Source: Pseudobdellovibrio sp. (GTDB taxonomy: Bacteria; Bdellovibrionota; Bdellovibrionia; Bdellovibrionales; Bdellovibrionaceae). Taken from it: DNA of 52,767 nt. The DNA lies in the NCBI GenBank assembly GCA_023701385.1, contig JAMPXC010000022.1:1-52767 (forward strand), read 5' to 3'. Below are positions 21,642-43,672 of the stretch, in pieces. The notes below the pieces were generated by a model, which was not told the DNA's origin, ran no database searches, and saw only the letters and a program-made list of their open reading frames with translations. The first letter of the stretch is position 1. Each line of letters starts with the position of its first letter. Position numbers and translations under genes: made by a program.

Positions 21642-22547
21642 TTAGCCTACGCTCCACTGAGAGAACTTTTTCATTTCACTGGATACGTCAGCACCAAGTT
21701 CAACGAAACGGTAACTTTGTGGTTGTGATACGATCTTACGAACTAACTTATTCATAATATCGTGACCGGCTTTGTGTAAAATTAAATGACCCATTAATGG
21801 CATCTCTAAAGTGACTAGATCACCTAACGCATCTAATACTTTATGGCGAACGAATTCGTCTTTATAACGTAAACCATCCGGGTTAATCACTTTTGAATCA
21901 TCTAACACGATACAGTTATCAAGCGATCCACCTTTAGCAAGACCTGAAGCTTTTAGCTGTTCAACATCTTTTAAAAAACCGAATGTTCTAGCCGGTGCGA
22001 TTTCACGAGCGAAAGATTGCTCGGTGATTTCCATATCAATTGTTTCTTTGCCGATCACGGGATGCGGAAAATCGATCGTCACAGCTACACGTAACCCGTG
22101 GTACGGAAGAACATACGCGTGTTTATCACCTTCAGAATAACTGATAGGTTCAGTGATATAACAATATTTTCTAGGCTCATCTAATTCGATAAGTTCGGCG
22201 TTCATTAAAGCTTGGGTAAAGTAAATTGAACTGCCATCACAGATGGGAATTTCTGGGCCATCAAGCTCGATATAAATATTATCAATTCTTAAAGCCGATA
22301 AAGATGAAACACAGTGTTCAATCGTGGCCACTTTAAAAATATCGCCACCCACAACTGTTTGATAACTGACTGCTTGCACATTTGTCGCTGATACTTTCAA
22401 AAAAGGTTTTCCCGGAAGATCGGCACGAATAAAATAAACGCCGGTATTGGCCGGAGCGGGTTTAAAACGTAATGTGCAGATTTCACCTGAGTGAATACCC
22501 ACACCTTTAACTTCTACCGTTTTACGAATTGTCTTTTGAAAAAACAT
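21642..22547 (-). CDS. lpxC: UDP-3-O-acyl-N-acetylglucosamine deacetylase
   Basis: Performs the committed, zinc-dependent step of lipid A synthesis. The 301-residue length is normal. Zinc ligand His78 lies in [17 protein letters not shown], and the second motif [13 protein letters not shown] near 232-244 supplies His and Asp, followed by a late [12 protein letters not shown] with the catalytic His. [12 protein letters not shown] is also typical. The gene begins inside the last 26 bp of ruvB, so it is read as part of the ruvCAB run. Together with lptF and lptE it shows that the organism makes LPS. Confidence 0.97.
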
Positions 22548-24720: not shown

Positions 24721-25575
24721 ATGACACAAGATGGAATGCCTAAAAAAGACCAAAAAGATTCTCTAGCAATAAAGAGAATTGAAAGCTTACAAGCTGAGCT
24801 TGAGCAAAATCCACGCTCTCTTTCATTCCCCCAGCTGGCTGATCTTTACTTAGAAAAAGACATGGTCGATGAAGCCTACGATGTGCTTCAAAAAGGCTTA
24901 CATTTTCATCCGAATTCTGTGAGCGGAATGCTGATTCTGACTCGTATTTTAAAAACAAGAAACCATTTTCCGGAAGCTGAAGCTCTACTTAACAAATCAA
25001 TCCGTTTAGCTCCGCAAAACTGGCAAGCTTACTTGATGCGCGCCGATCTTTACGTGCGCACCGGCAAACATAAAGCGGCCTTAGAAGATTTTAAAAAAGT
25101 GTTGATGTTCAATTCAACTCACCCGGTCGCGCGTAAAGCTGTGGCAAAATTAGAAATGATCACAGCTGATGAAGACATCGATGCCGATGCTGAATTTTCA
25201 GTCCAACCGCTGCAAAAAATGGCCGAAGTTCCAGAGCCAAAGCCAGCGGAACCGGAAGCAGCACCGTTCGGACAAATCTCTCCTAAATTAGAGCGCATTT
25301 TATCGGTGATTGATGCATTTACTATGCGCCAAGATTACGCCAAAGCTCTTAAATTGCTTTATGAATGTAAATCTGAGTTTGGTGCACACCCTGAAATTGA
25401 AGACCGACTTCTTAAGCTTTCACAGTACGAAACTGCTGAAAAAATACGCCCAAAAACAGAGGCTAAAATCTCTGAATCTAAAAAAGCTCTGATCATCGAG
25501 AAAAAGCAAAAGGCTTTAGAATTATTGCTGCGCAGGGTAATGAAGATGCAAAACGAGCGATTAGTTCACAACTAG
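24721..25575 (+). CDS. TPR-repeat protein
   Basis: A 284-residue soluble protein. At least three tetratricopeptide repeats lie between about 35 and 150 (FPQLADLYLEKDMVDEAYDV; VSGMLILTRILKTRNHFPEA; WQAYLMRADLYVRTGKHKAA). An acidic/proline-rich linker and a second helical region with EIEDRLLKL follow. TPRs mediate protein contact; no enzyme domain is present. I use the ATG at 24721, with weak ribosome site; a second ATG lies five codons on. It precedes efp by 47 bp. The partner is unknown. Confidence 0.85.
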   Translation: MTQDGMPKKDQKDSLAIKRIESLQAELEQNPRSLSFPQLADLYLEKDMVDEAYDVLQKGLHFHPNSVSGMLILTRILKTRNHFPEAEALLNKSIRLAPQNWQAYLMRADLYVRTGKHKAALEDFKKVLMFNSTHPVARKAVAKLEMITADEDIDADAEFSVQPLQKMAEVPEPKPAEPEAAPFGQISPKLERILSVIDAFTMRQDYAKALKLLYECKSEFGAHPEIEDRLLKLSQYETAEKIRPKTEAKISESKKALIIEKKQKALELLLRRVMKMQNERLVHN

Positions 25576-25622: not shown

Positions 25623-26189
25623 ATGTACGAAACGGCAGATTTTAGAAAAAATTTAAAAATCATGGTTGAAGGTTCGCCTTATGTGATCGTTGATTTCCAA
25701 CACGTTAAACCAGGAAAAGGAAATCAGTTCTCTAGAACTAAATTAAGAAACCTATTAACTGGTCAAAATCTTGAGCGCACTTTCAAGTCTGGCGAAAAAT
25801 TCGAAGTACCTAACGTTGAAAACATCGAAATGACTTTCTTATACAAAGACGACAACGGTTACAATTTCATGAACCAAGCAAACTACGAACAAATTTGCAT
25901 GATGGAACACGAAATCGGCGATGCTAAGAATTACTTAATCGAAAACTTAAACGTATTCATTACTATCTATAATGAAAAACCAGTAAACGTTGAGGTTCCT
26001 AAAGCTGTTAATATGAAAGTGGCGCAAACTGAACCGGGCATCAAAGGTGACCGCGTAACAGGAGCGACAAAACAAGCTACAATGGAAACGGGATTAGTTG
26101 TTAACGTTCCACTTCACATCAATGAAGGCGACACTTTAAGAATTGATTCTACAGAAGACGCTTACGTAGAGCGCGTAAGCCAAAAGTAG
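25623..26189 (+). CDS. efp: Translation elongation factor P
   Basis: EF-P relieves ribosome stalling at polyproline stretches. The 188-residue length and three beta-barrel domains are standard. The tip loop HVKPGKGNQF places Lys32 where the modified residue sits in the lysylated EF-P group; no modification enzyme is in the window. The ending GDTLRIDSTEDAYVERV is typical. TTGGAGTAAGT is a good ribosome site. It leads the run that continues into tamB and tamA. Confidence 0.98.
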   Translation: MYETADFRKNLKIMVEGSPYVIVDFQHVKPGKGNQFSRTKLRNLLTGQNLERTFKSGEKFEVPNVENIEMTFLYKDDNGYNFMNQANYEQICMMEHEIGDAKNYLIENLNVFITIYNEKPVNVEVPKAVNMKVAQTEPGIKGDRVTGATKQATMETGLVVNVPLHINEGDTLRIDSTEDAYVERVSQK

Positions 26190-26201: not shown

Positions 26202-27266
26202 ATGGCAGGAACTAACAGCCTCGAAATTGAAATTCACAATTACTTTCAAGAAGGCACCTCGACCGAGTATGTCAGCCGCGAACTAGTCGCAAAATACGAA
26301 AAAATGGAAGTCCTAAGCCCTTCAGAGATTGAAGGGCTTTCGCATTTTTTAATTACCTGCGGACGCTTTGATCTATTAAAAAAACTTTACGTCAAATGTG
26401 TTCAGCGCGGAAAAATCGGTTTATTTCCCGTAGGCTTTTTAATCGAAGCTTTATCAAAACAACATAAACCAGTAACCGATCGCGCGATGAATGTCTGTGA
26501 AGAGATCATCGAAAAACAACCTTTTGAATCCACAGCTTTACAACAACCTTATGTAAAATCTTTCTCAGTGCAAGTTGCTAAAGAACTTAAAGAGATTCAA
26601 AAAAATTACACCGAAGAACGCTTACGCCAAAAAACGCGTTTGATTGAACAACTTAATCACTACCGTACGGCGCAATTACAAGAACAAGAAGAAGCGGTTC
26701 TTCAGCAGTTAACTAAACTTTACCCGCAAGATTTAGAAATCGGATTATTAAAACAAGCCCACCTTGAGAAAAAAGCCGATGATATCTTAGAGCGAGTTAT
26801 TTCAAAACGTGTTATCGCAAAACCAAAAACAAGTATTGATAAAGCCAATACCAGTGAAGAGTTTTTAAAAGACATGCACGATAACATTTTAAAAATCGCG
26901 GCTGACTTATCAGTAAACCAACCTGATCAGCTTTACAATTTAGCGATCTTAGCTTTTCAATTTGAACTTTTCGAAGCCTGCCTAAAAGTTTTAGAAAAAG
27001 CTCCAGAAACATCTGCCAGAGATTGGCTGCGTGCTGAAGCTTTGCTTGAAGCCGGCAAATACTTAGAACTTATTCACTTGGTTGAATATTTAGAAGGCAA
27101 AGAAACTCATAGCACTGAAACTCCGTTTGGAGCTACGTACTTAAAAGCAATTGCTTATCACGGTCTTGGTAAAAAAGACTTAGCCATTCGTTTAATGGAA
27201 AGTATTCTACAAATTGTTCCGTATTACCGTTCTGCAGAAGCCCTACTTGTGGAGTGGAAATCGTGA
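26202..27266 (+). CDS. Helical repeat protein upstream of tamB
   Basis: A 354-residue soluble, mainly helical protein, charged and rich in Gln/Glu. A coiled-coil-like stretch (IEQLNHYRTAQLQEQEEAVL) lies at about 148-167. TPR-like pairs come late (YNLAILAFQFELFEACLKVLE; AIAYHGLGKKDLAIRLMESI). I do not recognise the family. It begins 12 bp after efp, and its stop overlaps the tamB start in GTGA. That suggests a partner or accessory of the TamB/Omp85 system, which is inference from position. Confidence 0.82.
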   Translation: MAGTNSLEIEIHNYFQEGTSTEYVSRELVAKYEKMEVLSPSEIEGLSHFLITCGRFDLLKKLYVKCVQRGKIGLFPVGFLIEALSKQHKPVTDRAMNVCEEIIEKQPFESTALQQPYVKSFSVQVAKELKEIQKNYTEERLRQKTRLIEQLNHYRTAQLQEQEEAVLQQLTKLYPQDLEIGLLKQAHLEKKADDILERVISKRVIAKPKTSIDKANTSEEFLKDMHDNILKIAADLSVNQPDQLYNLAILAFQFELFEACLKVLEKAPETSARDWLRAEALLEAGKYLELIHLVEYLEGKETHSTETPFGATYLKAIAYHGLGKKDLAIRLMESILQIVPYYRSAEALLVEWKS

Positions 27267-30200
27267 AGAAATCCACCAAGGTTAGCCTGGCTTTAACGCC
27301 AGCTATTTCATTAATTCTTTTAGGTATTTTATGGGTGACCACGATTAAACCGTGGGTTTTAAAAACCGCTAAAGACCAAATTCCTAAAGTAAATGAAATG
27401 CAGGACATGGTTCACATTGATGTGGGTCATATTGATTTTTCGTTAATTAAACTTCAGGCCTACGCTCATGATGTCAGTGTTACTTTAAACAAAGATGTAA
27501 GCAACACCGTGACTGTTCCGCGCGTGCGCGTGCAGATTGATCCGTTCAACTTATTAATCGGCCAATTAAATGTCTCGTACCTTCGTTTTGATGATACCAA
27601 AATTAATTTAAACGAAACGATTTTAAATTTAACACCTAAAAGTGATAACAAAGAAATTGATTTAGCGCCGCTGTTTAAATGGTTACCAAAAATTCCTTTA
27701 GAAAAAATCGTAATTAACGACACGCTATTGATGTTTGATATTCAAAGCCAAAAAGCAAAGCTTAGATCACATATCAATCTTTTAACTGTGGCTAATCATA
27801 AAAAAAGCCTAGTGGCCTCAATCACTGATTCAGAGTATGAACTGATTACTAAAAATATTTCAAAAATCACAGGAGCCTCGGTTCGCGTTGGTGGTCAGGC
27901 TGAATTGTTTGAAAACAAGCTTGAAATTTACAAACTCACGACCCGGGTTGAAAATTCAGCGGTAACAACAACTGGTGTTTTAAATAATTTTAAATACGCG
28001 CTGATCAAACCTGAATTTAGCGTTAAAACTAACGGTTCACTGATTTTCGAAAACTTAAAACCATTTTACTACTTCTTTGATGTTTCAAACAGACGCTTAC
28101 CGCAGATCTTAGGTCAGCTTAAATTTACGGGCGAAGTTAAAGGAGTAGGCTTTACACAAAACTCTGGCAGCGTTTCATTACAAACAGAAAACTTACAGTT
28201 TGATTTTATTAAGTCCGGTAATGCGAATATTAAAATGAACTTAAAAAATAACTCGGTGGCCTTTGACCAAATTCAGTTAAACCACCCATCTGGCGTTGCC
28301 AACCTTTCTGGCTTTGAGTTTGCCCAAGAAAAGCCTTACAAATTTAAAAGTAAGGTTCAAGTTAGCCAATTTAATTTACAAAAACTTTTTGCTTCATTAG
28401 AGCAAAAAAATATTCCGGCAGATCTTGATGCTTCGGTTCTTGGCAACTGTAACGGTCAATTTTTACCACTTGAAGTTCACTGTGATTCAAAGATTATTGC
28501 TGAAAATGTCTGGGTTAAATCAGATTTTAAAAACAAAAACTATATTGTTCAGGTTAAAAAAGCCCTTTTAAACGCTAAAGTTAACCTAGACACAAAAAGT
28601 GTTACATTCGATACGCAAGCCAAACTTAATACATCTGACTTTACTGGATCTGGTAAAATCGATTTTGAAAACGGCTTTGATATGAAGTTTAAATCAAATG
28701 GTTTTGAATTAAGTCATATTGATAATCTGGCCAATTTAAACCTGAAAGGTTTAATCACAGGTGAGCTTTCAACCAACGGAACTTCTCAATGGGGCGTGAT
28801 CAACGCTAAACTTAACGGTAAAAACTTTGAGATCGATAAGTTTCACTTAGGCAACATCACAGCTGATTTAAGCTATAAAGACGGCGAAATGTTTTTAAAA
28901 AACATTGGCGGCGAAATGGAGCAAAGTTTATATAGCGGAGACCTAGCTTTAAACTTTAAGAATTCAAGCCTTAAAGGCGAAGTTAGACTTCCACGGCTTT
29001 ACGGCAAGAGTGTTATTTCAATCTTAAAAGATCGTTTCTACTTACCATTTACTTTAACGGGCTTAGGCAAAGGTGAAATGACTTTTTCTGGGCCCTTTGA
29101 TTTCTGGAAAATGAAATATCACTTAAATGCCGAATTAAGCCGTGGCGCTATTGCTGATGAATCATTTAACCAATTAACTGCAAATCTTATAGCTAACGGC
29201 GATAAAATTAATTTTGACCGCGTGATTTTAACGAAACCTTCTGGCCAAGTTGTGGTTGGTGGCCATATCAATACACAAAACTCAGAGCCTCGCTTCAATT
29301 TAGATATTAATTCACAAAATTTACGCGTTGAAGAAGTCGATCACTTTATCAGCCTTTTACCTAAATCAACGGGCTTATTAACAGTAACGGGAAAAGTCGT
29401 AGATACGATTGATAAAGTTCAAGTGCAAGGCCAAGCCTCACTTCGCGATTTTACGATCGAAGGACAATCGCTTTTATCAAGCCAAGGTGATTTTATCATT
29501 AACCGAAATTTTTTAAGCTTTAACGGTCAAGTGTTTGGCCGCCAGGCGCAAGCAGCTGTGCAAATTCCGTTTAACGATAAGCATGAGTTTTTATTTAAAG
29601 CGCAGTTACGTGATTTAAACCCACTTAATTTCTTACCTCTTATTAACATTCCGCCGCCAGCTGTGGATACAACAGCCTTACTTACAGCCGAAGTTGATTT
29701 ACGAGCGCCACAAATGGATCTTTCTAAACTTAAAGGTTCGGTTAAGTTAAATAACTTTTTACTGGCTAGAAGTAATCAAACTTTAAAATTACAAAAACCA
29801 AGCGAGATCACTTTTAATTCGGGTTTAAAATCGCTTTCACCGATCAGTTTACGCGGTGCCGATCAAAGCCTTGATATCACCCAACACGGCCAAGTGCTTA
29901 ACTTTAACGGTAAATTATTAGCCCGCCCGTTTCAGTTTTTAGTACCGGCTTTAGAAAATCTAAATGGCGTAATTGAATTTGATTTCGGCGTTAATTTAAA
30001 TGCGAATAAATTGTCTTTAGCCGGTGATGGATCAATTAAAAATGGTCTTGCGCAGTTAAAAGGTTTTCCGTACCCGATTAAAGAAATCAATGCGATATTA
30101 GATTTTTCGCAGAGCAAACTCATCATTTCAAGTGTGTATGCCCAGCTAAACCAATCACCTGTGACAGGTTCTGGTTATGTGAACTTTTTAGGTTCGAAAA

Positions 30201-31246
30201 ATATCGATGTCAATATTCAGGCTGAAAGCACACACGTTGATTTAGAGTTCCCGCCGCAAATGCAGACCTCGGGCCAAGTTAAAGTTAAAATCTCGGGCCA
30301 ATGGATGCCGTACACGCTGAAGATTGATTACAACATCGATCAGGGCTTAGTCACAAAAGAATTTACCGGTGGCGCTGATGATATGAAGTTAACGCTGGCT
30401 CCGAGCCGTTACCTTCCACCTCAGCAATTAAACCAACAAAGCCCAACCCTGTTACTTGATGTAAATCCAAAATTTCCTAAAGGGATTATTATTAAAAATT
30501 CAATTCTTGAAGGAACAGCGACTGGAGAATTACGTATTACTGGTTCTCCGGAAATCCCTATTATCACAGGCCGCGTGGATATCGTGCCAGGTTCAAAACT
30601 ATTCTTTAAAGATAAACCTTTTGATATTCAAACAGGTTTTGTAATTTTTAACCCCGGCGACCAAAAATCGGCCGATATTAATCCTGAAATTTTTATGAAC
30701 GCAAGTTCGCGTGTCAGTGATTATGATATTAACTTATTAATTTCAGGGCAGGCCAAAGCACTGGCGATTAAACCAACATCACAACCACCGTTAAGTGAAA
30801 ATGATATTTTCTCATTATTAGCCTTAGGTTTTACGTCTTCAAATCAAGACCAAAACTTAACCTCAGATACGCAGCAGAAACAAACCGGTATCGAGGTTCT
30901 TGCGACAATTACGAACCAGTCTAAATTTAATAAGCAGATTCAAGAAAAGCTGGGTTTAAACGTGCAAATTGCACCTTCTGTGGATTCAACGAAAAATATC
31001 GCTGTTCCTAAAGTTGTTGTAAGTAAAAAGCTAAGCAAAAAAGTGAACGCTTCCTACTCTAGACCGTTGACTGGATCGCAACAAAGTAATGAAGTAAAAC
31101 TTCAATGGCTGTTTCATCCGGATTATTCGCTGAACTTGAACTATCAAAATCAGACGGATACGAACGAAACAGGCATTATTCAAAATAATGAAAACGATAC
31201 AGGTAACTACGGGATTGATCTTGAGTACAAAAAGGAATTTAAATGA
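27263..31246 (+). CDS. tamB: TamB-family (DUF490) translocation and assembly protein
   Basis: A very long protein (about 1327 residues) with one N-terminal membrane anchor (VSLALTPAISLILLGILWV) followed by repetitive beta strands that should form the hydrophobic groove bridging the inner and outer membranes. The C-terminal DUF490 region is clear: PIITGRVDIVPGSKLFFK, FVIFNPGD, and PPLSENDIFSLLALGFTS near 1175. TamB-like proteins support autotransporter assembly and phospholipid transport. I choose the GTG at 27263: GGAG lies 9 bp upstream and the start overlaps the previous stop (GTGA), while a GTG at 27254 abuts that GGAG. The stop overlaps the Omp85 gene start (ATGA). Confidence 0.94.
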   Translation: MKKSTKVSLALTPAISLILLGILWVTTIKPWVLKTAKDQIPKVNEMQDMVHIDVGHIDFSLIKLQAYAHDVSVTLNKDVSNTVTVPRVRVQIDPFNLLIGQLNVSYLRFDDTKINLNETILNLTPKSDNKEIDLAPLFKWLPKIPLEKIVINDTLLMFDIQSQKAKLRSHINLLTVANHKKSLVASITDSEYELITKNISKITGASVRVGGQAELFENKLEIYKLTTRVENSAVTTTGVLNNFKYALIKPEFSVKTNGSLIFENLKPFYYFFDVSNRRLPQILGQLKFTGEVKGVGFTQNSGSVSLQTENLQFDFIKSGNANIKMNLKNNSVAFDQIQLNHPSGVANLSGFEFAQEKPYKFKSKVQVSQFNLQKLFASLEQKNIPADLDASVLGNCNGQFLPLEVHCDSKIIAENVWVKSDFKNKNYIVQVKKALLNAKVNLDTKSVTFDTQAKLNTSDFTGSGKIDFENGFDMKFKSNGFELSHIDNLANLNLKGLITGELSTNGTSQWGVINAKLNGKNFEIDKFHLGNITADLSYKDGEMFLKNIGGEMEQSLYSGDLALNFKNSSLKGEVRLPRLYGKSVISILKDRFYLPFTLTGLGKGEMTFSGPFDFWKMKYHLNAELSRGAIADESFNQLTANLIANGDKINFDRVILTKPSGQVVVGGHINTQNSEPRFNLDINSQNLRVEEVDHFISLLPKSTGLLTVTGKVVDTIDKVQVQGQASLRDFTIEGQSLLSSQGDFIINRNFLSFNGQVFGRQAQAAVQIPFNDKHEFLFKAQLRDLNPLNFLPLINIPPPAVDTTALLTAEVDLRAPQMDLSKLKGSVKLNNFLLARSNQTLKLQKPSEITFNSGLKSLSPISLRGADQSLDITQHGQVLNFNGKLLARPFQFLVPALENLNGVIEFDFGVNLNANKLSLAGDGSIKNGLAQLKGFPYPIKEINAILDFSQSKLIISSVYAQLNQSPVTGSGYVNFLGSKNIDVNIQAESTHVDLEFPPQMQTSGQVKVKISGQWMPYTLKIDYNIDQGLVTKEFTGGADDMKLTLAPSRYLPPQQLNQQSPTLLLDVNPKFPKGIIIKNSILEGTATGELRITGSPEIPIITGRVDIVPGSKLFFKDKPFDIQTGFVIFNPGDQKSADINPEIFMNASSRVSDYDINLLISGQAKALAIKPTSQPPLSENDIFSLLALGFTSSNQDQNLTSDTQQKQTGIEVLATITNQSKFNKQIQEKLGLNVQIAPSVDSTKNIAVPKVVVSKKLSKKVNASYSRPLTGSQQSNEVKLQWLFHPDYSLNLNYQNQTDTNETGIIQNNENDTGNYGIDLEYKKEFK

Positions 31247-34068
31247 TGCCAATAGTGAAAGTTAAAAGCTTACTATGCTCTTTATTATTCTTTGCTATCG
31301 TAAGACCTGCTTTTGCGCAGACGTATCCGGCATTCAATCTTAAAGATTGGCCACCAGATATTATTACGCCTTTAACGAAAAAATACCCCGCACTATTACA
31401 AAAATCATTTACCCAAGAAGATCTTTCACAGCTCTTAAAAGACATTCATAGTGAACTTAATTTTAACCAGCTTAAAGTTGTCGAAAAAGACGGCGAACTC
31501 TTCTTAGTGGGGACATTAAGTTCTAAAGTTGAAACGATTAAATTTACCGGACTTGAAGAAATCGACGAAGAAGATGCTTTAGAAATTTTAGCGGTTAATT
31601 TTTCTGAAGCTCAGGATGAAAATAAAGTCGCCGCCGGCGTAGAACGTTTGACAAATTATTTTAGAAATTTCGGCTACCGTAAAGCCCGTATCACATCACG
31701 TATTGTAAATAAGGGTACAACAGCCCGCGATCTGATAATTGATTTAAACTTAGGTAAAATCACAGAAATTCACGCTATTAAAATCGAAGGTTTACCAAAA
31801 GCAGAAACCTTAGGCATAGAACGTGACTTTAGCTGGAACGGAAAAGGTAAAATTTTATCTGACGAAAATTTAAAAACCGTAAGCCGCTCTCTTAGAAAGT
31901 CTCTAAATGCCCACGGTTATTATTTAGTCAACATTCCGTCACCTTCAATTGCATTCAGCGCCGACGAACAAAAGGCCAGTTTGAATTTTAAACTTACCCC
32001 GCAGCCAAAATATAAAATTGAGCTGACAGGCCAACAGTACCAAAGAAAAGATGCCACCGAACTTTCTATGACTAAGCCGGTTTTATTAAATGAAGTTTTA
32101 AAGCTGGATGAATATGTTGCCAGCGAACCGAATTTTGGCTCTGACTTGGCCGAAAAAATTCGTCTGTACTATTTATCAGAAGGTTTTGCCCATTGCGAAG
32201 TTCCCTATTACGAACGAAAAGAAGGCCATATCACTGTTCTTACTTTAAATATTAGCGAAGGCCCGCTGGTTAAAATTGACCGTATCGCTGTGACTGGTAA
32301 TATTTCCCGCCCTGAAAAATTTTACGTCGAAACATTCAAAGATCTTTCTTCGGCTAAAACCAAAAAAAATGTTCTTATTCAGGCTGATATAGAACAGGCT
32401 GCTAAAAATTTAATTACTTACTTGCAAAACGAAGGTTATGTAAACGCTAAACTTTCGCGTATTCAAGTGGGTACTGAAAACAGACGTTCAAATAAAGCTC
32501 TAGTTGCTTTACAAATCGAAGAAGGCCCGCAGGCTACTATCGATAAAATTACAGTGACCGGAAATCGTTTTTTCTCGACTGAAAAAATCAATGAAGTTTT
32601 AGGTTTAAAACCAGGACAAAGATTAAGCCTCGTTGAACTTGAAACAGCCATTAATAACTTAAAAACATTTTACGCTGATAATGGTTTTATTGAATCTAAA
32701 CTTTTATCAGAAAATAAAGATTTAATTCAGTATTCAGACAGCTTAACTGAAGCTTCAATTAAAATTGAAATCTTCGAAGGACCGCAGATCCGTGTGGGTT
32801 CGATTTTAATTGAAGGCAATGATATGACCCACGCAAAACTCATTTTAACAGAGTTAGATTTTAAAGTGGGCGAATTATTAACTCCGGGTAAGTTAGATGA
32901 ATCAACAACCCGTTTACAACGTACGGGACACTTTTCAACGATTGAAATTTACACTCTTGAAGCCAACACTGACGTCAAAGAACGTACCGTTGTGGTGCGT
33001 GTGAACGAACGTAAACCCGGCGTATTTACGGCCGGTGTGGGTTTTACGAATGAAAATAATGTAACAGCTCACGGATTCATGGGTATCGCCTATCGTAATC
33101 TTGGTGGCTGGGGCCGCGGGGTTTCTTTACGTGGTGAGGTTAAATATAATCCGTCTGTTATTAAATTTGCCGAATACAAAGCGACTGCCGGATATCTTGA
33201 GCCTTATTTATTTGATACACGTTTACGCTTTCGCTTTAACTACACCACAGCCCGTGATGTGTCAGATTTAAGTATCAGAAAAGTAACAATCACTAACCAA
33301 ACGGTGTGGTCTTTAGAACAAGATTTCACATCACACTTAACAGGAATTTACGAGCTTCTAAATATCTCAAATTACGTCGATGAAGGGATCACCCGCCAAG
33401 ACGAAATTGATAATGGTTATTCGCGTGAAGACTTAGTGATTTCAACGACAGGCCCTACGATTGATCTTGATTACCGCGATAATATTTTAAATCCGACCGA
33501 TGGGCACTGGACGCGCTTAACTTTAGAATATTCAGCCGATGCGATCGGAAATCACAACGTTGATGATTTCTACCGCGCCACTGGGCAATTCACTTTGTAT
33601 TCACCGATCTGGGAAGAACAAGGTTTAGTGTGGGTTAACTCGTATCGTGCGGGATATGTTAAAACTCTAGGCAACTATGAATTTGGTGTTCCATTTGATA
33701 AAAAAGGTTTCATTTTAGGAGGACGCTCGACAATTCGTGGTTTTGAATCGAGCGAGTTTTTCCCAACAACGAACAAACAGCTTCCAGCGAGCTATAAATT
33801 AGACAATTATTCAGTTTTCCAATTGATCAAATCTGAGTTCCGATTTCCACTTTTTGGCTCTGAAAATCTAATGGGAGCTGTATTTTACGATGGCGGCGAA
33901 GTGATCGTGGATCATATTTCATTCGATGACCGCTACCGCGATGCTGCAGGAGTAGGCTTACGCTACAATACTCCGGTCGGTCCGCTTAATTTAGAATATG
34001 CCCGAAAGCTCGACAGAAAGAGCTACGAGTCAGAAGGGGCTTTTCATTTGTCAGTAGGCGTCTTCTAA
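31243..34068 (+). CDS. tamA: Omp85-family outer-membrane protein (TamA/BamA-like) with six POTRA-like repeats
   Basis: 941 residues. A signal peptide ends at RPAFAQ (about residue 27). Six successive POTRA-like units can be read, beginning near residues 86, 168, 252, 340, 430 and 515; several carry the VTGN or IEGN turn and end in an EG or ER motif. A 16-strand barrel region follows from about 595: VGFTNENNVTAHGFMGIAYR, the loop-6 motif GGRSTIRGFES, and a C-terminal YNTPVGPLNLEYARKL. E. coli TamA has three POTRAs and BamA five. The adjacent, overlapping tamB favours a TamA-type role; BamA cannot be ruled out by sequence alone. Confidence 0.92.
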   Translation: MMPIVKVKSLLCSLLFFAIVRPAFAQTYPAFNLKDWPPDIITPLTKKYPALLQKSFTQEDLSQLLKDIHSELNFNQLKVVEKDGELFLVGTLSSKVETIKFTGLEEIDEEDALEILAVNFSEAQDENKVAAGVERLTNYFRNFGYRKARITSRIVNKGTTARDLIIDLNLGKITEIHAIKIEGLPKAETLGIERDFSWNGKGKILSDENLKTVSRSLRKSLNAHGYYLVNIPSPSIAFSADEQKASLNFKLTPQPKYKIELTGQQYQRKDATELSMTKPVLLNEVLKLDEYVASEPNFGSDLAEKIRLYYLSEGFAHCEVPYYERKEGHITVLTLNISEGPLVKIDRIAVTGNISRPEKFYVETFKDLSSAKTKKNVLIQADIEQAAKNLITYLQNEGYVNAKLSRIQVGTENRRSNKALVALQIEEGPQATIDKITVTGNRFFSTEKINEVLGLKPGQRLSLVELETAINNLKTFYADNGFIESKLLSENKDLIQYSDSLTEASIKIEIFEGPQIRVGSILIEGNDMTHAKLILTELDFKVGELLTPGKLDESTTRLQRTGHFSTIEIYTLEANTDVKERTVVVRVNERKPGVFTAGVGFTNENNVTAHGFMGIAYRNLGGWGRGVSLRGEVKYNPSVIKFAEYKATAGYLEPYLFDTRLRFRFNYTTARDVSDLSIRKVTITNQTVWSLEQDFTSHLTGIYELLNISNYVDEGITRQDEIDNGYSREDLVISTTGPTIDLDYRDNILNPTDGHWTRLTLEYSADAIGNHNVDDFYRATGQFTLYSPIWEEQGLVWVNSYRAGYVKTLGNYEFGVPFDKKGFILGGRSTIRGFESSEFFPTTNKQLPASYKLDNYSVFQLIKSEFRFPLFGSENLMGAVFYDGGEVIVDHISFDDRYRDAAGVGLRYNTPVGPLNLEYARKLDRKSYESEGAFHLSVGVF

Positions 34069-34119: not shown

Positions 34120-35628
34120 ATGCGTCAACACACTGTACGTGTTTACCCGTCTAAAGAAAAAATCGAACGCCGCGACCAACTGGCTTGGAAAATGGCGGAA
34201 ATCTGCACTGATAACGCTCCCATCAAAGAAGATGTTGTCGACATGGTTATTAATCGTATTATCGACAACGCTTCAGTTGCGATCGCTTCTGCTAACCGTC
34301 ACCCGGTAGCTTCAGCTCGTGCAATGGCTTTAGCTCACCCACGCGCTGGTGGTGCTACTGTATTCGGTATGCCGAATGACCAAAAATTTTCTTGTGAATG
34401 GGCTGCCTGGGCTAACGGAACTGCGGTTCGTGAATTAGATTACCATGATACTTTCTTAGCGGCTGATTACTCTCACCCTGGTGATAACATTCCACCAATC
34501 TTAGCGGTAGCTCAACAAACTGGTAAAAACGGTAAAGAGTTATTAAAAGCGATCGTTGCTGGTTACGAATTACACGTAGACTTAGTAAAAGGTATTTGTT
34601 TACACAAACATAAAAAAGATCATATTGCTCACTTATGCCCGGCTTCTGCTGGTGGTATCGGTACACTTCTTGGTCTTCCGACAGAAACTGTGTTCCAGGC
34701 TATCCAACAAGCGGTTCACGTTTCTTTCAACACTCGTCAATCTCGTAAAGGCGAAATCTCTTCTTGGAAAGCTTATGCTCCTGCTCACGCTGGTAAATTA
34801 GCTATCGAAGCCGTTGACCGTTGTATGAGAGGCGAAGGCGCTCCATCTCCGATTTACGAAGGGGAAGATTCAGTTATCGCTTACATGTTAGATGGTAAAG
34901 ACGGTAAATACGTTGTTCCACTTCCAGAAGTTGGCGAAGAAAAACGCGCGATCTTAGAAACATACACTAAAGAGCACTCGGCTGAATACCAATCACAAGC
35001 TCTAATCGATTTAGCAGCTCGTATGAAATCAAAAGTTTCTAACTTTGATGATGTTAAATCTATCGTGATCCACACATCTCACCACACTCACTACGTGATC
35101 GGCACTGGCGCCAACGATCCACAAAAAATGGATCCTAAAGCTTCTCGTGAAACTCTAGATCACTCGATCATGTACATCTTCGCTGTAGCTTTACAAGATG
35201 GTACTTGGCACCATGTTGACTCTTACACTCCAGAGCGTGCTCAGCGTGCTGACACTGTTCGTTTATGGCACAAAATTTCTACGTTAGAAGATCCTAAATG
35301 GACTGCTGCTTACCACGACACTGACCCGAACAAAAAAATGTTCGGTGGTAAAGTAGAAATCACAATGAACGATGGTACAAAAATCGTTGATGAATTAGGT
35401 GTTGCAAATGCCCACCCAGCGGGTGCTAAACCATTCAAACGTGCGGACTACATCCGTAAGTTTGATACATTAACTTCTGATATCATCACTAAAGAAGAAC
35501 GTAACCGTTTCATCTCTTTATGTGAGCGCTTACCAGAGTTAACGGCGGCTGAAGTTCAACAGTTAAACGTACAAATTCCAATCGACAAAATGATCAACAA
35601 CAAACGCGACCAAAAAGGTATTTTCTAA
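34120..35628 (+). CDS. prpD: 2-Methylcitrate dehydratase (MmgE/PrpD family)
   Basis: Dehydrates 2-methylcitrate to 2-methyl-cis-aconitate in propionate breakdown. The 502 residues match PrpD throughout: [44 protein letters not shown] near 105-136, [29 protein letters not shown] and [18 protein letters not shown] precedes the ATG. It is first of prpD-prpB-prpC, with 10 bp and 30 bp gaps. Codon use is strikingly uniform, as in highly expressed genes of this window. No separate PrpF/AcnD or PrpE gene is present. Confidence 0.96.
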
Positions 35629-35638
35629 GGATTAAGTT

Positions 35639-36547
35639 ATGATGTTTCCTACTCTTACAGCGGCAGAAAAAAGAAAAAATTTTCGTGAACAATTAAAATC
35701 TGGGAAGTTATTGCAATTTCCCGGGTCGTTTTCTCCGCTGGTGAGTATGATGATCGAACAAAAGGGTTTTGACGGTGTTTACATCTCAGGATCTGTTTTA
35801 TCAAATGACTTAGGTTACCCAGACATCGGGCTTACAACTTTAACTGAAGTTGCAGCTCGTGGTCGTCAAATCGCCCGCACAACTAAGTTACCGGCTATCA
35901 TTGATGCTGATACAGGTTGGGGCGAACCAATGAATGTGACTCGCACGATTCAAGAATTTATTGAAATGGGTCTTGCGGGTTGCCATCTTGAAGATCAAGA
36001 AAACCCAAAACGCTGTGGCCACTTAGACAACAAATCTGTTGTTGAGGCTCCGCAAATGATTAAAAAAATCAAAGCTGCCGTTAACGGTAAAAAATTAGAC
36101 CCGAATTTTTTAATTATCGCACGTACTGATTCACGCGCTTCAGAAGGTTTAGATAAAGCTATCGACCGTGCTAAAGCTTACGTTGATGCCGGTGCTGAGA
36201 TGATTTTTCCAGAAGCTATGCAGAACGAAAAAGAATTCGAAGCGATGAGAAAAGCGATCAGCGTTCCGCTATTAGCGAACATGACTGAATTCGGTAAAGG
36301 TAAATTATATACTAAAACTGAATTAGAAAACTTAGGTTACAACTTAGTGATCTACCCGGTGACGACTTTACGTTTAGCTATGGGTAACACTGAAAAAGGC
36401 TTAGATATTATTAAATCTACAGGCTCTCAAGAACAAGCCGTACCTTTAATGCAAACTCGTCAGCAATTGTATGATCTTACAAACTACGAAGCATACAACT
36501 CGTTTGACCAATCTATTTTTAATTTTAAATTAAATAACAACCAATAA
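35639..36547 (+). CDS. prpB: 2-Methylisocitrate lyase
   Basis: Splits 2-methylisocitrate into pyruvate and succinate. The 302-residue length is right for PrpB of the isocitrate lyase/PEP mutase superfamily. The Mg-binding DADTGWGEP and the catalytic loop signature EDQENPKRCGHLDNK (KRCGH motif) are present, as is IIARTDSRASEGLDKAIDRA. It is the second gene of the methylcitrate operon. Other superfamily members (oxaloacetate decarboxylase, PEP mutase) lack the KRCGH loop. Confidence 0.97.
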   Translation: MMFPTLTAAEKRKNFREQLKSGKLLQFPGSFSPLVSMMIEQKGFDGVYISGSVLSNDLGYPDIGLTTLTEVAARGRQIARTTKLPAIIDADTGWGEPMNVTRTIQEFIEMGLAGCHLEDQENPKRCGHLDNKSVVEAPQMIKKIKAAVNGKKLDPNFLIIARTDSRASEGLDKAIDRAKAYVDAGAEMIFPEAMQNEKEFEAMRKAISVPLLANMTEFGKGKLYTKTELENLGYNLVIYPVTTLRLAMGNTEKGLDIIKSTGSQEQAVPLMQTRQQLYDLTNYEAYNSFDQSIFNFKLNNNQ

Positions 36548-36577
36548 TAAAAAGAATAAGAAGAGAAAGAGGAAATC

Positions 36578-37741
36578 ATGGCTGAATATATTAATCCCGA
36601 TTACGTAGCTGAACCAGAAAAAATGAACGTTAAAAAAGGTCTTGAAGGCGTTGTCATGGATACTTCTTCAGTATCAAAGGTCAATGCAGAAACGAACTCT
36701 TTAGTTTACCGTGGTTACCCAGTACAAGATTTAGCTGAAAACTGCTCTTTCGAAGAAGTAGCTTACTTAATGTATAACGGCGAACTTCCGAACAAAGCTC
36801 AATTAGCTGAGTTCTCTGCAAAAGAAAAATCTTTACGTGATATCTCTAAAGACAATTTAAACGTAATCAAAGCTTTACCTAAAAAATGTCACCCGATGGA
36901 TTCTATCCGCACTGGTGTTTCATTCTTAGGTTGCGAAGACGAAAGAATCTGGGATGCTACTCCAGCAGTTAACATGGATAAAGCGATCCGTTTATTAGCT
37001 AAAATCCCAACAATGGTTGCAGCTGATTACCGTTTCAAAAAAGGTTTAGACTTTATTGCTCCAAACCCTTCTTTATCAATCGCTGAAAACTTCTTCCACA
37101 TGTGCTTTGGTAAAGTACCAGATGCAAAAGTGGTTAAAGCTTTCGACGTATCTTTAATTTTATACGCTGAGCATTCATTCAATGCTTCAACATTTACATC
37201 ACGTGTTGTTACATCAACTCAATCTGACATTTACTCGGCTACTACTGCAGGTATCGGTGCTTTAAAAGGACCTTTACACGGTGGTGCAAATGAAATGGTT
37301 ATGCACATGATGATCGAAATCGCTGATCCAGCAAAAGCTGAACAGTGGATGTTAGATGCTTTAGCTAACAAACGTAAAGTTATGGGCTTTGGTCACCGCG
37401 TTTATAAATCTGGTGATTCACGCGTTCCAACAATGAAAAAATACGCGCAAGTTATGGCTGACGTAACTGGCGAACAAAAATGGATGCAAATGTATGCGTC
37501 TTTAGAAAAAGTAATGGTAGAGAAAAAGAAAATCTACCCTAACTTAGACTTCCCGGCTGGTCCTGCTTACTACATGATGGGTTTTGAAATCGATTTCTTT
37601 ACTCCGATCTTCGTCATGGCTCGTACAACTGGTTGGTCAGCTCACATCATGGAACAAACGGCTAATAACCGTATCATCCGTCCATTATCTGAGTACATCG
37701 GTGCTCCTCAACGTAGTGTAAAGCCAATCTCTGAGAGATAA
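36578..37741 (+). CDS. prpC: 2-Methylcitrate synthase
   Basis: Condenses propionyl-CoA with oxaloacetate. The 387 residues show citrate-synthase family catalytic regions: the EHSFNASTFTSRVVTST helix with His, LHGGANEMVMHMM, MGFGHRVYKSGDSRVP and the late DFPAGPAYYMMGFEIDFFTPIF with Asp. The short length and GHRVYK-D-R context fit type II 2-methylcitrate/citrate synthase. Operon position after prpD and prpB favours methylcitrate synthase, though it may also make citrate. GAGGAAATC precedes the ATG, and a strong terminator follows. Confidence 0.95.
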   Translation: MAEYINPDYVAEPEKMNVKKGLEGVVMDTSSVSKVNAETNSLVYRGYPVQDLAENCSFEEVAYLMYNGELPNKAQLAEFSAKEKSLRDISKDNLNVIKALPKKCHPMDSIRTGVSFLGCEDERIWDATPAVNMDKAIRLLAKIPTMVAADYRFKKGLDFIAPNPSLSIAENFFHMCFGKVPDAKVVKAFDVSLILYAEHSFNASTFTSRVVTSTQSDIYSATTAGIGALKGPLHGGANEMVMHMMIEIADPAKAEQWMLDALANKRKVMGFGHRVYKSGDSRVPTMKKYAQVMADVTGEQKWMQMYASLEKVMVEKKKIYPNLDFPAGPAYYMMGFEIDFFTPIFVMARTTGWSAHIMEQTANNRIIRPLSEYIGAPQRSVKPISER

Positions 37742-39171: not shown

Positions 39172-39621
39172 TTAAGGAATAATTTCGATCTTACCCGACT
39201 CACAATCCACTTTAGTTTTCTTCACGCCAAAAGCGTAAACATAAACTTTTCCGGCGCGTGGGATTTCGCCTTTGATCATCGAAATAGAGTCTTGCGCTAA
39301 CATCTTTAACCAAGAATCTGAAGTTGATTTAACCGTAGTCTCCAAAGCAGAGATGGCGCGAGCATTACCGATATGGCCTAATGCCATCGCCGCACTCCAC
39401 TTTGATTGATTACCTACGGCTTCACTAGACAAAGCCTGAGATAACGAAGCCACAGCCGCATCACCCATGCCGATTAACTTGTTCGTTAAAATCACAACTT
39501 TACAAGCGTCTAATTCACTTTCTACTTTAGCCAACTCAGAATTGACGTTCATCTCAAGATCGTTGGCATTTACTACACACGTACTACTGACTAAGAGAAA
39601 AGCTACTAAAATATTTTTCAC
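39172..39621 (-). CDS. Secreted HEAT-repeat-like protein
   Basis: A 149-residue protein with signal peptide (MKNILVAFLLVSSTCVVNAN, cleavage near 20). Residues 40-115 are alpha-helical with a HEAT/PBS-lyase-like pattern (AAVASLSQALSSEAVG; WSAAMALGHIGNARAISALE; WLKMLAQDSISMI). It should be periplasmic. It starts 2 bp after the stop of the L,D-transpeptidase gene, so the two are co-expressed and it may assist cell-wall remodelling; that link is inference. Confidence 0.85.
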   Translation of the reverse strand: MKNILVAFLLVSSTCVVNANDLEMNVNSELAKVESELDACKVVILTNKLIGMGDAAVASLSQALSSEAVGNQSKWSAAMALGHIGNARAISALETTVKSTSDSWLKMLAQDSISMIKGEIPRAGKVYVYAFGVKKTKVDCESGKIEIIP

Positions 39622-39623
39622 AA

Positions 39624-41561
39624 TTATTCTCCCGCTGGACCTGCAGTTAAAGATACTAACGGGATACCCATCATTAATTTGTACATGTCTAAATCAACAC
39701 CGTAATTATCTTTAACTAAAGTTAATTGACCGACGTCATTGATGTGAGCCGTATCGTATAAAAAGTAAACCGGAACCGAACGACCTAAATCAAGATTTGG
39801 ATCTGGACGATCTGCGATCGGCATACGATTAAGGGTTCTGTCATGTAACGACTGAATTGTGTAAGGCATATTAGTCACAGGATCAATCGTCGCACCAGAA
39901 TACTCGTCAGTTAATGGATCATGTGTAGCACCAAGTAACATGATCGCTAATTCCCATGGTTTTTCCATACGCACACAACCAGAACTTAATAAACGGTCGC
40001 GGTTGGCGAATAACTCTCTTTGATTTGTATCATGCATATAGATGCTGTTTGTTCCATTTAACGGGAACTTAATCCAACCTAAAGCATTTTGTTCACCACC
40101 TGGGCGTTGAACGATACGTAAAGCGCGCGTAACTTTATCCGGTCTTTGACCTGGAACTAATTCAAATCTCGCTTTTTCATCTTGGAAAAGCTTCATAAAT
40201 GCCGGCCAGTTTTCCTGAGTTGCTGTGATTGTATTATCTAGTGGATTTGTAAAACGTCTCATTACATCCATAAATGGATATTCCTGACCTGTCATCGCCA
40301 TGTGGCGAGCATTGTAGTCAGCGATAATCTTCATGTTTTCAACGATGAATGTGTAACGTTTTTCATTCACATCATTAAGACCGTTCCAGCTAGAAAACAT
40401 TTTTGTCTTATCTTTAAAATACGGAGTCGGAGCCACTGTCCAAGTTGGATTTAAAATCATCGTTGTGATTTTGCTTGTTAAAATCGGTGTTGGACGTTCT
40501 TTAGCGCCATTGATTGTTTTAAACGTTAAAGCAATCTGATTATTTTTATAATAGAAAAAACGTTGCGCTGCTAAATTTACATGAACATACTCAGAAGTTA
40601 AATTGTCCGGTAACCAACGCGAACGATCTAAATTAAGTTTTAAACGCGTGATAATTTGCTCGATAGGCGTCGTTAATAAACCATAACTATCTTTACCAAT
40701 CACACCGTCACGACCTAAAAGGTTGTTCTCTTGTAACTCTTCAATCGCAATTTGTAATTCATCAGTATAATTCGGATCATTGATAAATCTGTTGTAGTCA
40801 TTGATCTCTTGAGCTTCTGCAGTAAAAGTAGAAGCCGGATCAATCTGTACTTTCTTCTTATAACCGAATAAAGCTAAACGTTTACGCGCAAACTTAATTG
40901 AAATTTCGTCTTTTGAACCACGTTTAATAACTGTTTTATTCACTGGCACATCTGCGTCTGAAATCTCACCTTTTTTATAGGCTGTCGTAACTCTACGGTA
41001 TAGTTCTAGAAGTCTTGTGTAACTTGCATTTTTGGGGCGAAATGTTGCGAATAACTGTTCACCCGTGATCTCGCCTTTTTCAAAACGGAATAACTCTTTC
41101 TGAATTAAAGCCGGTAAACCTTTTGCCGAACCTTTAATTTTATCAAGGCTCACTAAAGTTTTATCGCCTAACTTTTCAGGCTGAATATAGCCGCGATTTA
41201 AAGCGATCATCATTTTGTAAACTACGTTGTAAGCTGTTTTACGTAATTCATTTTTATTACCGGTTTGAGCCTGGTAATTTAAAGTCGCCGCAACTTGGTC
41301 ATCAACAAACCAATCACGTTGCATACCTTCAGCATCAGCTAAAATAAGAAGCTCGTTAATTTTATTTAAATATTCATTTTGAATTAAAGCCCCTTGCGAA
41401 CGTAAAACTAAAGTTTCACTTGCTAGCGGAGTTGCAATTGCAGATACAGGAGCCGCGACAACATTCACCGGAGCAGCTGCAACAGCTGGATTAACTTGCG
41501 AAAATGCCGGAGCCGCAAACACCATTCCTAAGATAAAAGGGGCAAATTTATTTAATTTCAT
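39624..41561 (-). CDS. L,D-transpeptidase, YcbB/LdtD type
   Basis: A 645-residue exported enzyme. The signal peptide ends at PAFSQV (about residue 22). A peptidoglycan-binding-like segment (IGKDSYGLLTTPIEQII) near 290-310 is followed by NLDRSRWLP. The YkuD catalytic domain holds IYMHDTNQRELF and the Cys nucleophile near residue 528 in SSGCVRMEKPWELA. It makes 3-3 crosslinks or attaches proteins to peptidoglycan. Preceded by a small secreted protein (14-bp gap) and followed by a HEAT-like secreted protein (2-bp gap). In predatory relatives such enzymes modify walls of both cells; that role is possible here, not shown. Confidence 0.94.
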   Translation of the reverse strand: MKLNKFAPFILGMVFAAPAFSQVNPAVAAAPVNVVAAPVSAIATPLASETLVLRSQGALIQNEYLNKINELLILADAEGMQRDWFVDDQVAATLNYQAQTGNKNELRKTAYNVVYKMMIALNRGYIQPEKLGDKTLVSLDKIKGSAKGLPALIQKELFRFEKGEITGEQLFATFRPKNASYTRLLELYRRVTTAYKKGEISDADVPVNKTVIKRGSKDEISIKFARKRLALFGYKKKVQIDPASTFTAEAQEINDYNRFINDPNYTDELQIAIEELQENNLLGRDGVIGKDSYGLLTTPIEQIITRLKLNLDRSRWLPDNLTSEYVHVNLAAQRFFYYKNNQIALTFKTINGAKERPTPILTSKITTMILNPTWTVAPTPYFKDKTKMFSSWNGLNDVNEKRYTFIVENMKIIADYNARHMAMTGQEYPFMDVMRRFTNPLDNTITATQENWPAFMKLFQDEKARFELVPGQRPDKVTRALRIVQRPGGEQNALGWIKFPLNGTNSIYMHDTNQRELFANRDRLLSSGCVRMEKPWELAIMLLGATHDPLTDEYSGATIDPVTNMPYTIQSLHDRTLNRMPIADRPDPNLDLGRSVPVYFLYDTAHINDVGQLTLVKDNYGVDLDMYKLMMGIPLVSLTAGPAGE

Positions 41562-43015: not shown

Positions 43016-43642
43016 CTAAAAATTATCTACCAGGCGGTCGAATGCGAGCTGCATCATCTCTTCTGATAAAGTCTCAAGAGTCTGCCTACGCGCTGATAGA
43101 TTGTAAAGGTTATTTGCCGAGTTGATGACTGGTAAGGTCAGTTGTGGCGGTGTATAGTTTCTACTCTGCTTAAATTGGCTGCTCCATAAAACTTCTGAAG
43201 AGTTTTTGCGCTGTAATTTTAAGTCGACGGTAACAGTAATTTTCGTCGTCGTAGATAAAATCGTATTTTTAGGCAAAAACTTAGTGTCTTTGGCTTCAAT
43301 CGCCCCTTCTTCAGAAACGATTTCAACCGTTGATACAGTACCGTATAAAACAGCATCAGAAAGGTCTTCTTTATCGACTATGCGCATGGCTTTTGAATTT
43401 AAGAACTCACGTTTTAAAGAATTCGTAAAATAAGCCTCTAAACCTGGCTCGGTAGAGACGTTTTTAAACAAAGGCGTATAAATTACGCGCACATTCTGCG
43501 GTAGAGTGTCTACTTTACTGCTAAGTTTGTAAGCGCAAGAGCTTACACAGCTGCTAATTACAAGAATAATGACAGCAGACGTCAGGCTACTAAATCTGCG
43601 TAGAAAACAATGACAAAAAGCTTCGACAAAGTGAGTTTTCAT
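43016..43642 (-). CDS. lptE: LPS-assembly lipoprotein LptE
   Basis: Plugs the LptD pore and helps insert LPS in the outer membrane. About 208 residues from the ATG at 43642; a TTG at 43654 is in frame but has no ribosome site. The N-terminus is basic and hydrophobic, ending in VISSCVSSCAYKL. The second Cys is the better lipidation site, since LptE normally begins C-G/A-Y-x-L. The rest has the family pattern (NVRVIYTPLFKNVSTEPGLE; FTNSLKREFLNS; VLWSSQFKQS). It precedes holA by 6 bp. The promoter lies in the 30 bp shared with the divergent aminotransferase. Confidence 0.9.
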   Translation of the reverse strand: MKTHFVEAFCHCFLRRFSSLTSAVIILVISSCVSSCAYKLSSKVDTLPQNVRVIYTPLFKNVSTEPGLEAYFTNSLKREFLNSKAMRIVDKEDLSDAVLYGTVSTVEIVSEEGAIEAKDTKFLPKNTILSTTTKITVTVDLKLQRKNSSEVLWSSQFKQSRNYTPPQLTLPVINSANNLYNLSARRQTLETLSEEMMQLAFDRLVDNF

Positions 43643-43672
43643 TGATGTAATCAAACCGCGGAAAGGCTGAAC

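Follow-up and report, generated by a model that had tools for sequence, protein, structure and literature searches.

A tamB-linked, BamA-type Omp85 protein of Pseudobdellovibrio with a probable seven POTRA repeats, by gene order an ortholog of Bd2495

The protein encoded at positions 31243-34068 of the window (the whole stretch of 52,767 nucleotides of Pseudobdellovibrio sp. analysed here) is, by gene order, an ortholog of the Omp85 member of a published TPR-TamB-Omp85 operon, and the count of its POTRA repeats is corrected here to a probable seven. The finding therefore adds one more ortholog to a system that is already known.

Organization of the locus

The genes and the parts of the Omp85 protein are as follows, in window coordinates.

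26202..27266, forward strand: TPR protein gene (354 aa, 40.7 kDa)
27254..31246, forward strand: tamB (1330 aa; N-terminal membrane anchor; TamB domain at C-terminal residues 966-1329)
31243..34068, forward strand: TamB-linked BamA-type Omp85 gene (941 aa)
31243..31317, forward strand: signal peptide of the Omp85 protein (residues about 1-25, by eye)
31321..31524, forward strand: probable POTRA 1 (D1), divergent (residues 27-94; from profile comparison)
31525..31761, forward strand: POTRA 2 (D2; residues 95-173; over the Pfam cut-off)
31762..32010, forward strand: POTRA 3 (D3; residues 174-256; over the Pfam cut-off)
32011..32268, forward strand: POTRA 4 (D4; residues 257-342; profile match to D2 and D6, no Pfam match)
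32269..32532, forward strand: POTRA 5 (D5; residues 343-430; at the Pfam cut-off, 21.3 bits)
32533..32787, forward strand: POTRA 6 (D6; residues 431-515; over the Pfam cut-off)
32788..33021, forward strand: POTRA 7 (D7), adjoining the barrel (residues 516-593; over the Pfam cut-off)
33022..34065, forward strand: Omp85 barrel (residues 594-941; PF01103 match at 624-939)

The product has the two marks of the Omp85 superfamily, POTRA repeats and a barrel with a (V/I/L)RG(F/Y) motif, here IRGF at residues 831-834; the C-terminal residue is F. Pfam matches the 941-residue protein to Omp85 at E 3.5e-28 and to POTRA at E 2.9e-39, the latter in five stretches. The forward-strand reading frame and these matches bear out the original prediction of an Omp85 protein with POTRA repeats beside tamB. 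The tamB gene lies directly upstream, overlaps the omp85 gene by 4 bp and matches the Pfam TamB domain at E 9e-35; a Pfam scan of the source genome finds this TamB-domain (PF04357) match and no second one. The repeat protein that had been thought to overlap the omp85 gene overlaps tamB instead, by 13 bp. It contains no strongly hydrophobic stretch.

An elongation factor P gene (25623-26189) lies just 5' of the operon, as it lies near the operon in all 20 of the loci L034-L053 (tblastn), and is itself preceded by the gene for a second, separate TPR protein (24721-25575), an arrangement seen in many of these loci. Directly after the omp85 gene, prpD-like, PEP mutase/ICL-type (prpB-like) and citrate-synthase genes (Pfam names) occupy 34120-37741; judged from those names, the run looks like a methylcitrate cycle operon. 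The window also holds other genes of outer-membrane biogenesis, a gene recognized by eye as lpxC-like (21642-22547) and an LptE-like lipoprotein gene at 43016-43654. A large L,D-transpeptidase gene (YkuD domain, 645 aa; 39624-41561) adjoins the gene for a small HEAT-repeat protein (39172-39621).

The number of POTRA repeats

In the whole-genome Pfam scan five repeats, D2, D3, D5, D6 and D7, reach the POTRA cut-off, and D4 has no POTRA match. In a 40-row alignment, however, the profile of D4 matches that of D2 at 98.6-98.8% probability and that of D6 at 98.2-98.3%. The five Pfam repeats together with D4 thus give six clear units. To this extent the six POTRA-like units originally counted by eye are upheld, but that count missed a divergent segment at residues 27-94, with which the total is most likely seven.

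In the same alignment the profile of this segment, D1, matches D2, D3, D6 and D7, four of the six other repeats, at 78-92% probability, as against a maximum of 2.4% among controls (10 column-shuffles and 8 barrel segments); it matches D4 at 40-58% and D5 at 0.6-1.5%. Among 10 N-termini scanned with Pfam, the segment at this place passes the POTRA cut-off in two, clearly in L055 (1.4e-8) and marginally in L059 (4.3e-4), and a weak match appears in L058 (0.12); in the other seven, the window's among them, the D1 segment has no POTRA match. Because of the profile matches, the low controls and the Pfam matches in L055 and L059, the protein very probably carries seven POTRAs, the first of them strongly diverged.

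The alternative, that there are six repeats and that residues 27-94 form an unrelated helical extension, draws on the missing Pfam match and on the weakness of the D1 match when the profile is built from near relatives alone (63% to D7, 53% to D3, at most 14% to the others). It is for the latter reason that D1 is graded most likely rather than certain. The segment is also missing in some rows of the alignment: D1 columns are at least 70% filled in 32 of the 40 rows, compared with 39 of 40 for D2, and L067 is without D2 as well as D1. The remaining 8 rows look like six-POTRA forms, or a five-POTRA form in the case of L067, as judged solely from the alignment (D1 columns less than 70% filled). 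An unrelated extension nevertheless seems unlikely in view of the contrast between the D1 matches and their controls and of the POTRA matches at the same place in L055 and L059. A model of the fragment 25-175, of low confidence (mean pLDDT 46.0), has the POTRA-like order short strand, helix, helix, strand, strand, and the B. bacteriovorus protein is described as having seven repeats (PMC3983030). A structure model of the whole protein from a two-row alignment has a mean pLDDT of 30.8 and, like that of the fragment, is of too low quality to decide the count.

Relation to BamA and TamA

The source genome contains two Omp85 matches, the product of 31243-34068 and that of L001 (76-2490). The latter, on another contig, is a five-POTRA BamA in a bamA-skp-lpxA arrangement and scores 615.6 bits against TIGR03303. 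The original prediction had allowed that the window's protein might be the only Omp85 and hence the BamA; because this separate five-POTRA locus exists, that reading fails and the window's protein is not the BamA of the cell. BamA was likewise distinct from the TamB-linked gene in each of the 34 genomes searched.

Against the BamA model TIGR03303 the TamB-linked protein scores 317.2 bits, over the cut-off of 297.15, which is also reached by five of the eight orthologs scanned. Its POTRA count (at least six, most likely seven) departs from the five of BamA, and the canonical bamA-skp-lpx place is held by L001. Against the TamA model NF047950 it scores 109.1 bits, far under the cut-off of 625; it shares with TamA a place beside tamB and differs in having more than three POTRAs. 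The TamL profile gives 63.1 bits against a cut-off of 400, and no cysteine of a TamL lipobox is seen by eye at the expected cleavage site. By these sequence comparisons the protein is neither a classical three-POTRA TamA nor the BamA, and is tied to tamB.

Conservation across the phylum

At a threshold of E 1e-30 the protein has a match in 194 of 240 genomes of the phylum, a count for which, as a rule, the best three first-look candidates per genome were scored and which could include some BamAs. From the 194, 40 loci were picked, not at random, so as to cover families and strong matches. In all 40, the gene immediately upstream, in the same orientation, is tamB, and in 28 the tamB and omp85 reading frames overlap (with starts chosen by script). 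Distant families of the phylum retain the pair. A profile search places the TPR protein next to tamB in all 21 loci of the same order, overlapping tamB in 18, and outside the order gives weak partial TPR matches in 5 of 19 loci; the strongest of these (9.7e-14) is in L059, immediately ahead of tamB. Judged by eye, the TamB tail ends in a G-x-D-containing stretch in every one of the 40 loci and is akin to that of E. coli TamB.

A quick tree of the last POTRA and the barrel sets the 40 TamB-linked rows apart from 30 BamAs (SH-aLRT 98 for the separating branch); L069, truncated at 430 aa, was left out of the alignment and the tree. Since the tree separates the two groups, the split between them is older than the spread of the sampled families. 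Placement of the group nearer to E. coli TamA or to E. coli BamA is not trusted, as both sit on long branches.

The published counterpart

In Bdellovibrio bacteriovorus, bd2492 (TPR), bd2494 (TamB) and bd2495 are co-transcribed, and Bd2495 is described as a "7-POTRA" Omp85, the "TamA" of a TamAB-like system, whose deletion failed in either growth mode (Milner et al. 2014, PMC3983030). The same report gives this gene order for B. marinus and, with one gene in between, for Myxococcus xanthus. The window's operon comes from another genus and is of the same type: a TPR protein without a signal sequence (by hydropathy only), TamB and a multi-POTRA Omp85. It resembles the published operon in gene order, in the size of the TPR protein (354 aa here, 353 aa for Bd2492), in the TamB domain and in the probable seven-POTRA Omp85. 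We take the window's Omp85 to be the ortholog of Bd2495 by gene order, sizes and family rather than by alignment with Bd2495 itself, and the TPR protein (26202-27266) is likely, by position and size, the ortholog of Bd2492. The repeat protein, called uncharacterised at first, thus has as its counterpart Bd2492, a published TPR protein that binds MglA. The suggestion of a distinct type of assembly machine stands in part: the protein is indeed a tamB-tied Omp85 apart from classical TamA and BamA, but the system is not a new type, having been published in 2014.

In the limited literature searched we know of no phylum-wide survey of tamB-omp85 in print. What this analysis adds is the linkage to tamB in 40 of 40 loci, the separation in the tree, the lineages with apparently six or five repeats, and the intact operon of an epibiotic relative.

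Related systems are known elsewhere. Heinz et al. (2015, PMC4494059) report that other phyla have duplicate BamAs linked to TamB, in some cases with six or seven POTRAs, from which TamA may have arisen. Those of Acidobacteria and Aquificae resemble the present case as BamA-type paralogs beside TamB with more than five POTRAs; the order in Acidobacteria is BamA-TamB, whereas here it is TamB-Omp85, and the account of these duplicates in that paper, as far as it bears on them, mentions no TPR protein such as that of the window's operon. Myxobacteria have several BamA paralogs with varying numbers of POTRAs (Heinz and Lithgow 2014, PMC4104836). In Borrelia a modelled BamA-TamB hybrid likewise pairs a BamA-type protein with TamB (PMC13382580); there, however, the partner is the only BamA and has the five POTRAs of spirochaetes, whereas the window's genome has a separate BamA. 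E. coli TamA-TamB is similar in that the Omp85 adjoins TamB and in the TamB tail, and differs in the three POTRAs of TamA, against most likely seven here.

Proposed function

The protein quite likely forms the outer-membrane part of a trans-envelope complex of the TAM type and is a BamA-type paralog dedicated to TamB. This reading is favored because tamB is directly upstream throughout the sampled loci, because the G-x-D-containing TamB end is kept in all of them and is akin to the E. coli tail, because the genome has a single TamB-domain match alongside two Omp85 matches, one of them a separate BamA, and because the tree sets the TamB-linked rows apart. The co-transcription of the B. bacteriovorus operon and the failure to delete its tamA (PMC3983030) point the same way. 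Counting against it are the BamA cut-off reached and the TamA cut-off far off, and a gene order, tamB-omp85, that reverses the tamA-tamB of E. coli.

The paralog, already old in this phylum, would have come to serve TamB as its dedicated partner. From its anchor in the inner membrane, TamB would span the periplasm as hydrophobic β-structure, and its conserved C-terminal strand would insert at the lateral gate of the Omp85 barrel. A seven-POTRA arm may reach back along TamB and hold it. In E. coli TamAB, TamB pairs through its last strand with the first strand of the TamA barrel and carries phospholipid (PMC12800296); by analogy, pairing of the TamB tail with the barrel, and holding of TamB by the arm, are to be expected here. 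The complex might move phospholipid, help to insert some outer-membrane proteins, or both, beside the ordinary five-POTRA BamA, and the co-encoded TPR protein probably links its expression, and perhaps its place, to the MglA/RomR pole system. We infer complex formation, the lipid or protein cargo and the geometry of the arm from these comparisons.

Two other roles deserve consideration. The protein could be a second general BamA that inserts its own set of barrel proteins with accessory lipoproteins, its co-transcription with tamB being incidental. The score over the NCBIfam BamA cut-off, shared by most of the orthologs scanned, would fit, and a BamA would be expected to resist deletion, as Bd2495 does (PMC3983030). 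An incidental association is hard to reconcile with a linkage found in every locus sampled, and a canonical bamA-skp-lpxA locus is present in the genome, as is a separate BamA in all 34 genomes searched; we regard this role as improbable. The operon could, on the other hand, be a predation device that secretes invasion proteins at the pole under the direction of the TPR protein, MglA and RomR (Milner et al. 2014, PMC3983030). Bd2492 binds MglA, RomR and CdgA, is located at the invasive pole and is required for invasion (PMC3983030), and the window's genome encodes MglA (E 1.7e-75 to a solved MglA). Yet the whole operon is intact in a near relative (78% identity), Candidatus Bdellovibrio qaytius (L003/L034, the latter taken as CP025734.1), an epibiotic predator that is not known to invade prey (PMC11656739), so the TPR gene and the complex are unlikely to serve invasion alone. 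The presence of tamB-omp85 in distant families also speaks against a predation device, and the failed deletions in host-independent growth favor a housekeeping role (PMC3983030). Such a device is thus a doubtful explanation.

A bolder version of the TAM-type reading would place the complex under polarity control, with the TPR protein tying the MglA/RomR hub to TamB and the Omp85 delivering its cargo, whether lipid or outer-membrane protein, at a single pole, a Bdellovibrionales trait atop an older phylum-wide TamB-Omp85 core. We offer this tentatively, as a speculation that is rather unlikely to hold as it stands. Only about 3-20 residues of TamB precede the membrane anchor where the start is well placed, and so short a segment makes direct docking by the TPR protein look strained. 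A search for solved structures related to the TPR protein found none.

For annotation, the window's gene and L001 both pass the NCBI BamA equivalog cut-off, and so automatic annotation may name both BamA; of the two, only the skp-linked one is BamA. For the biology of the group, the tamB-omp85 pair is, within the sample of the phylum taken here, a core feature rather than an extra for predation.
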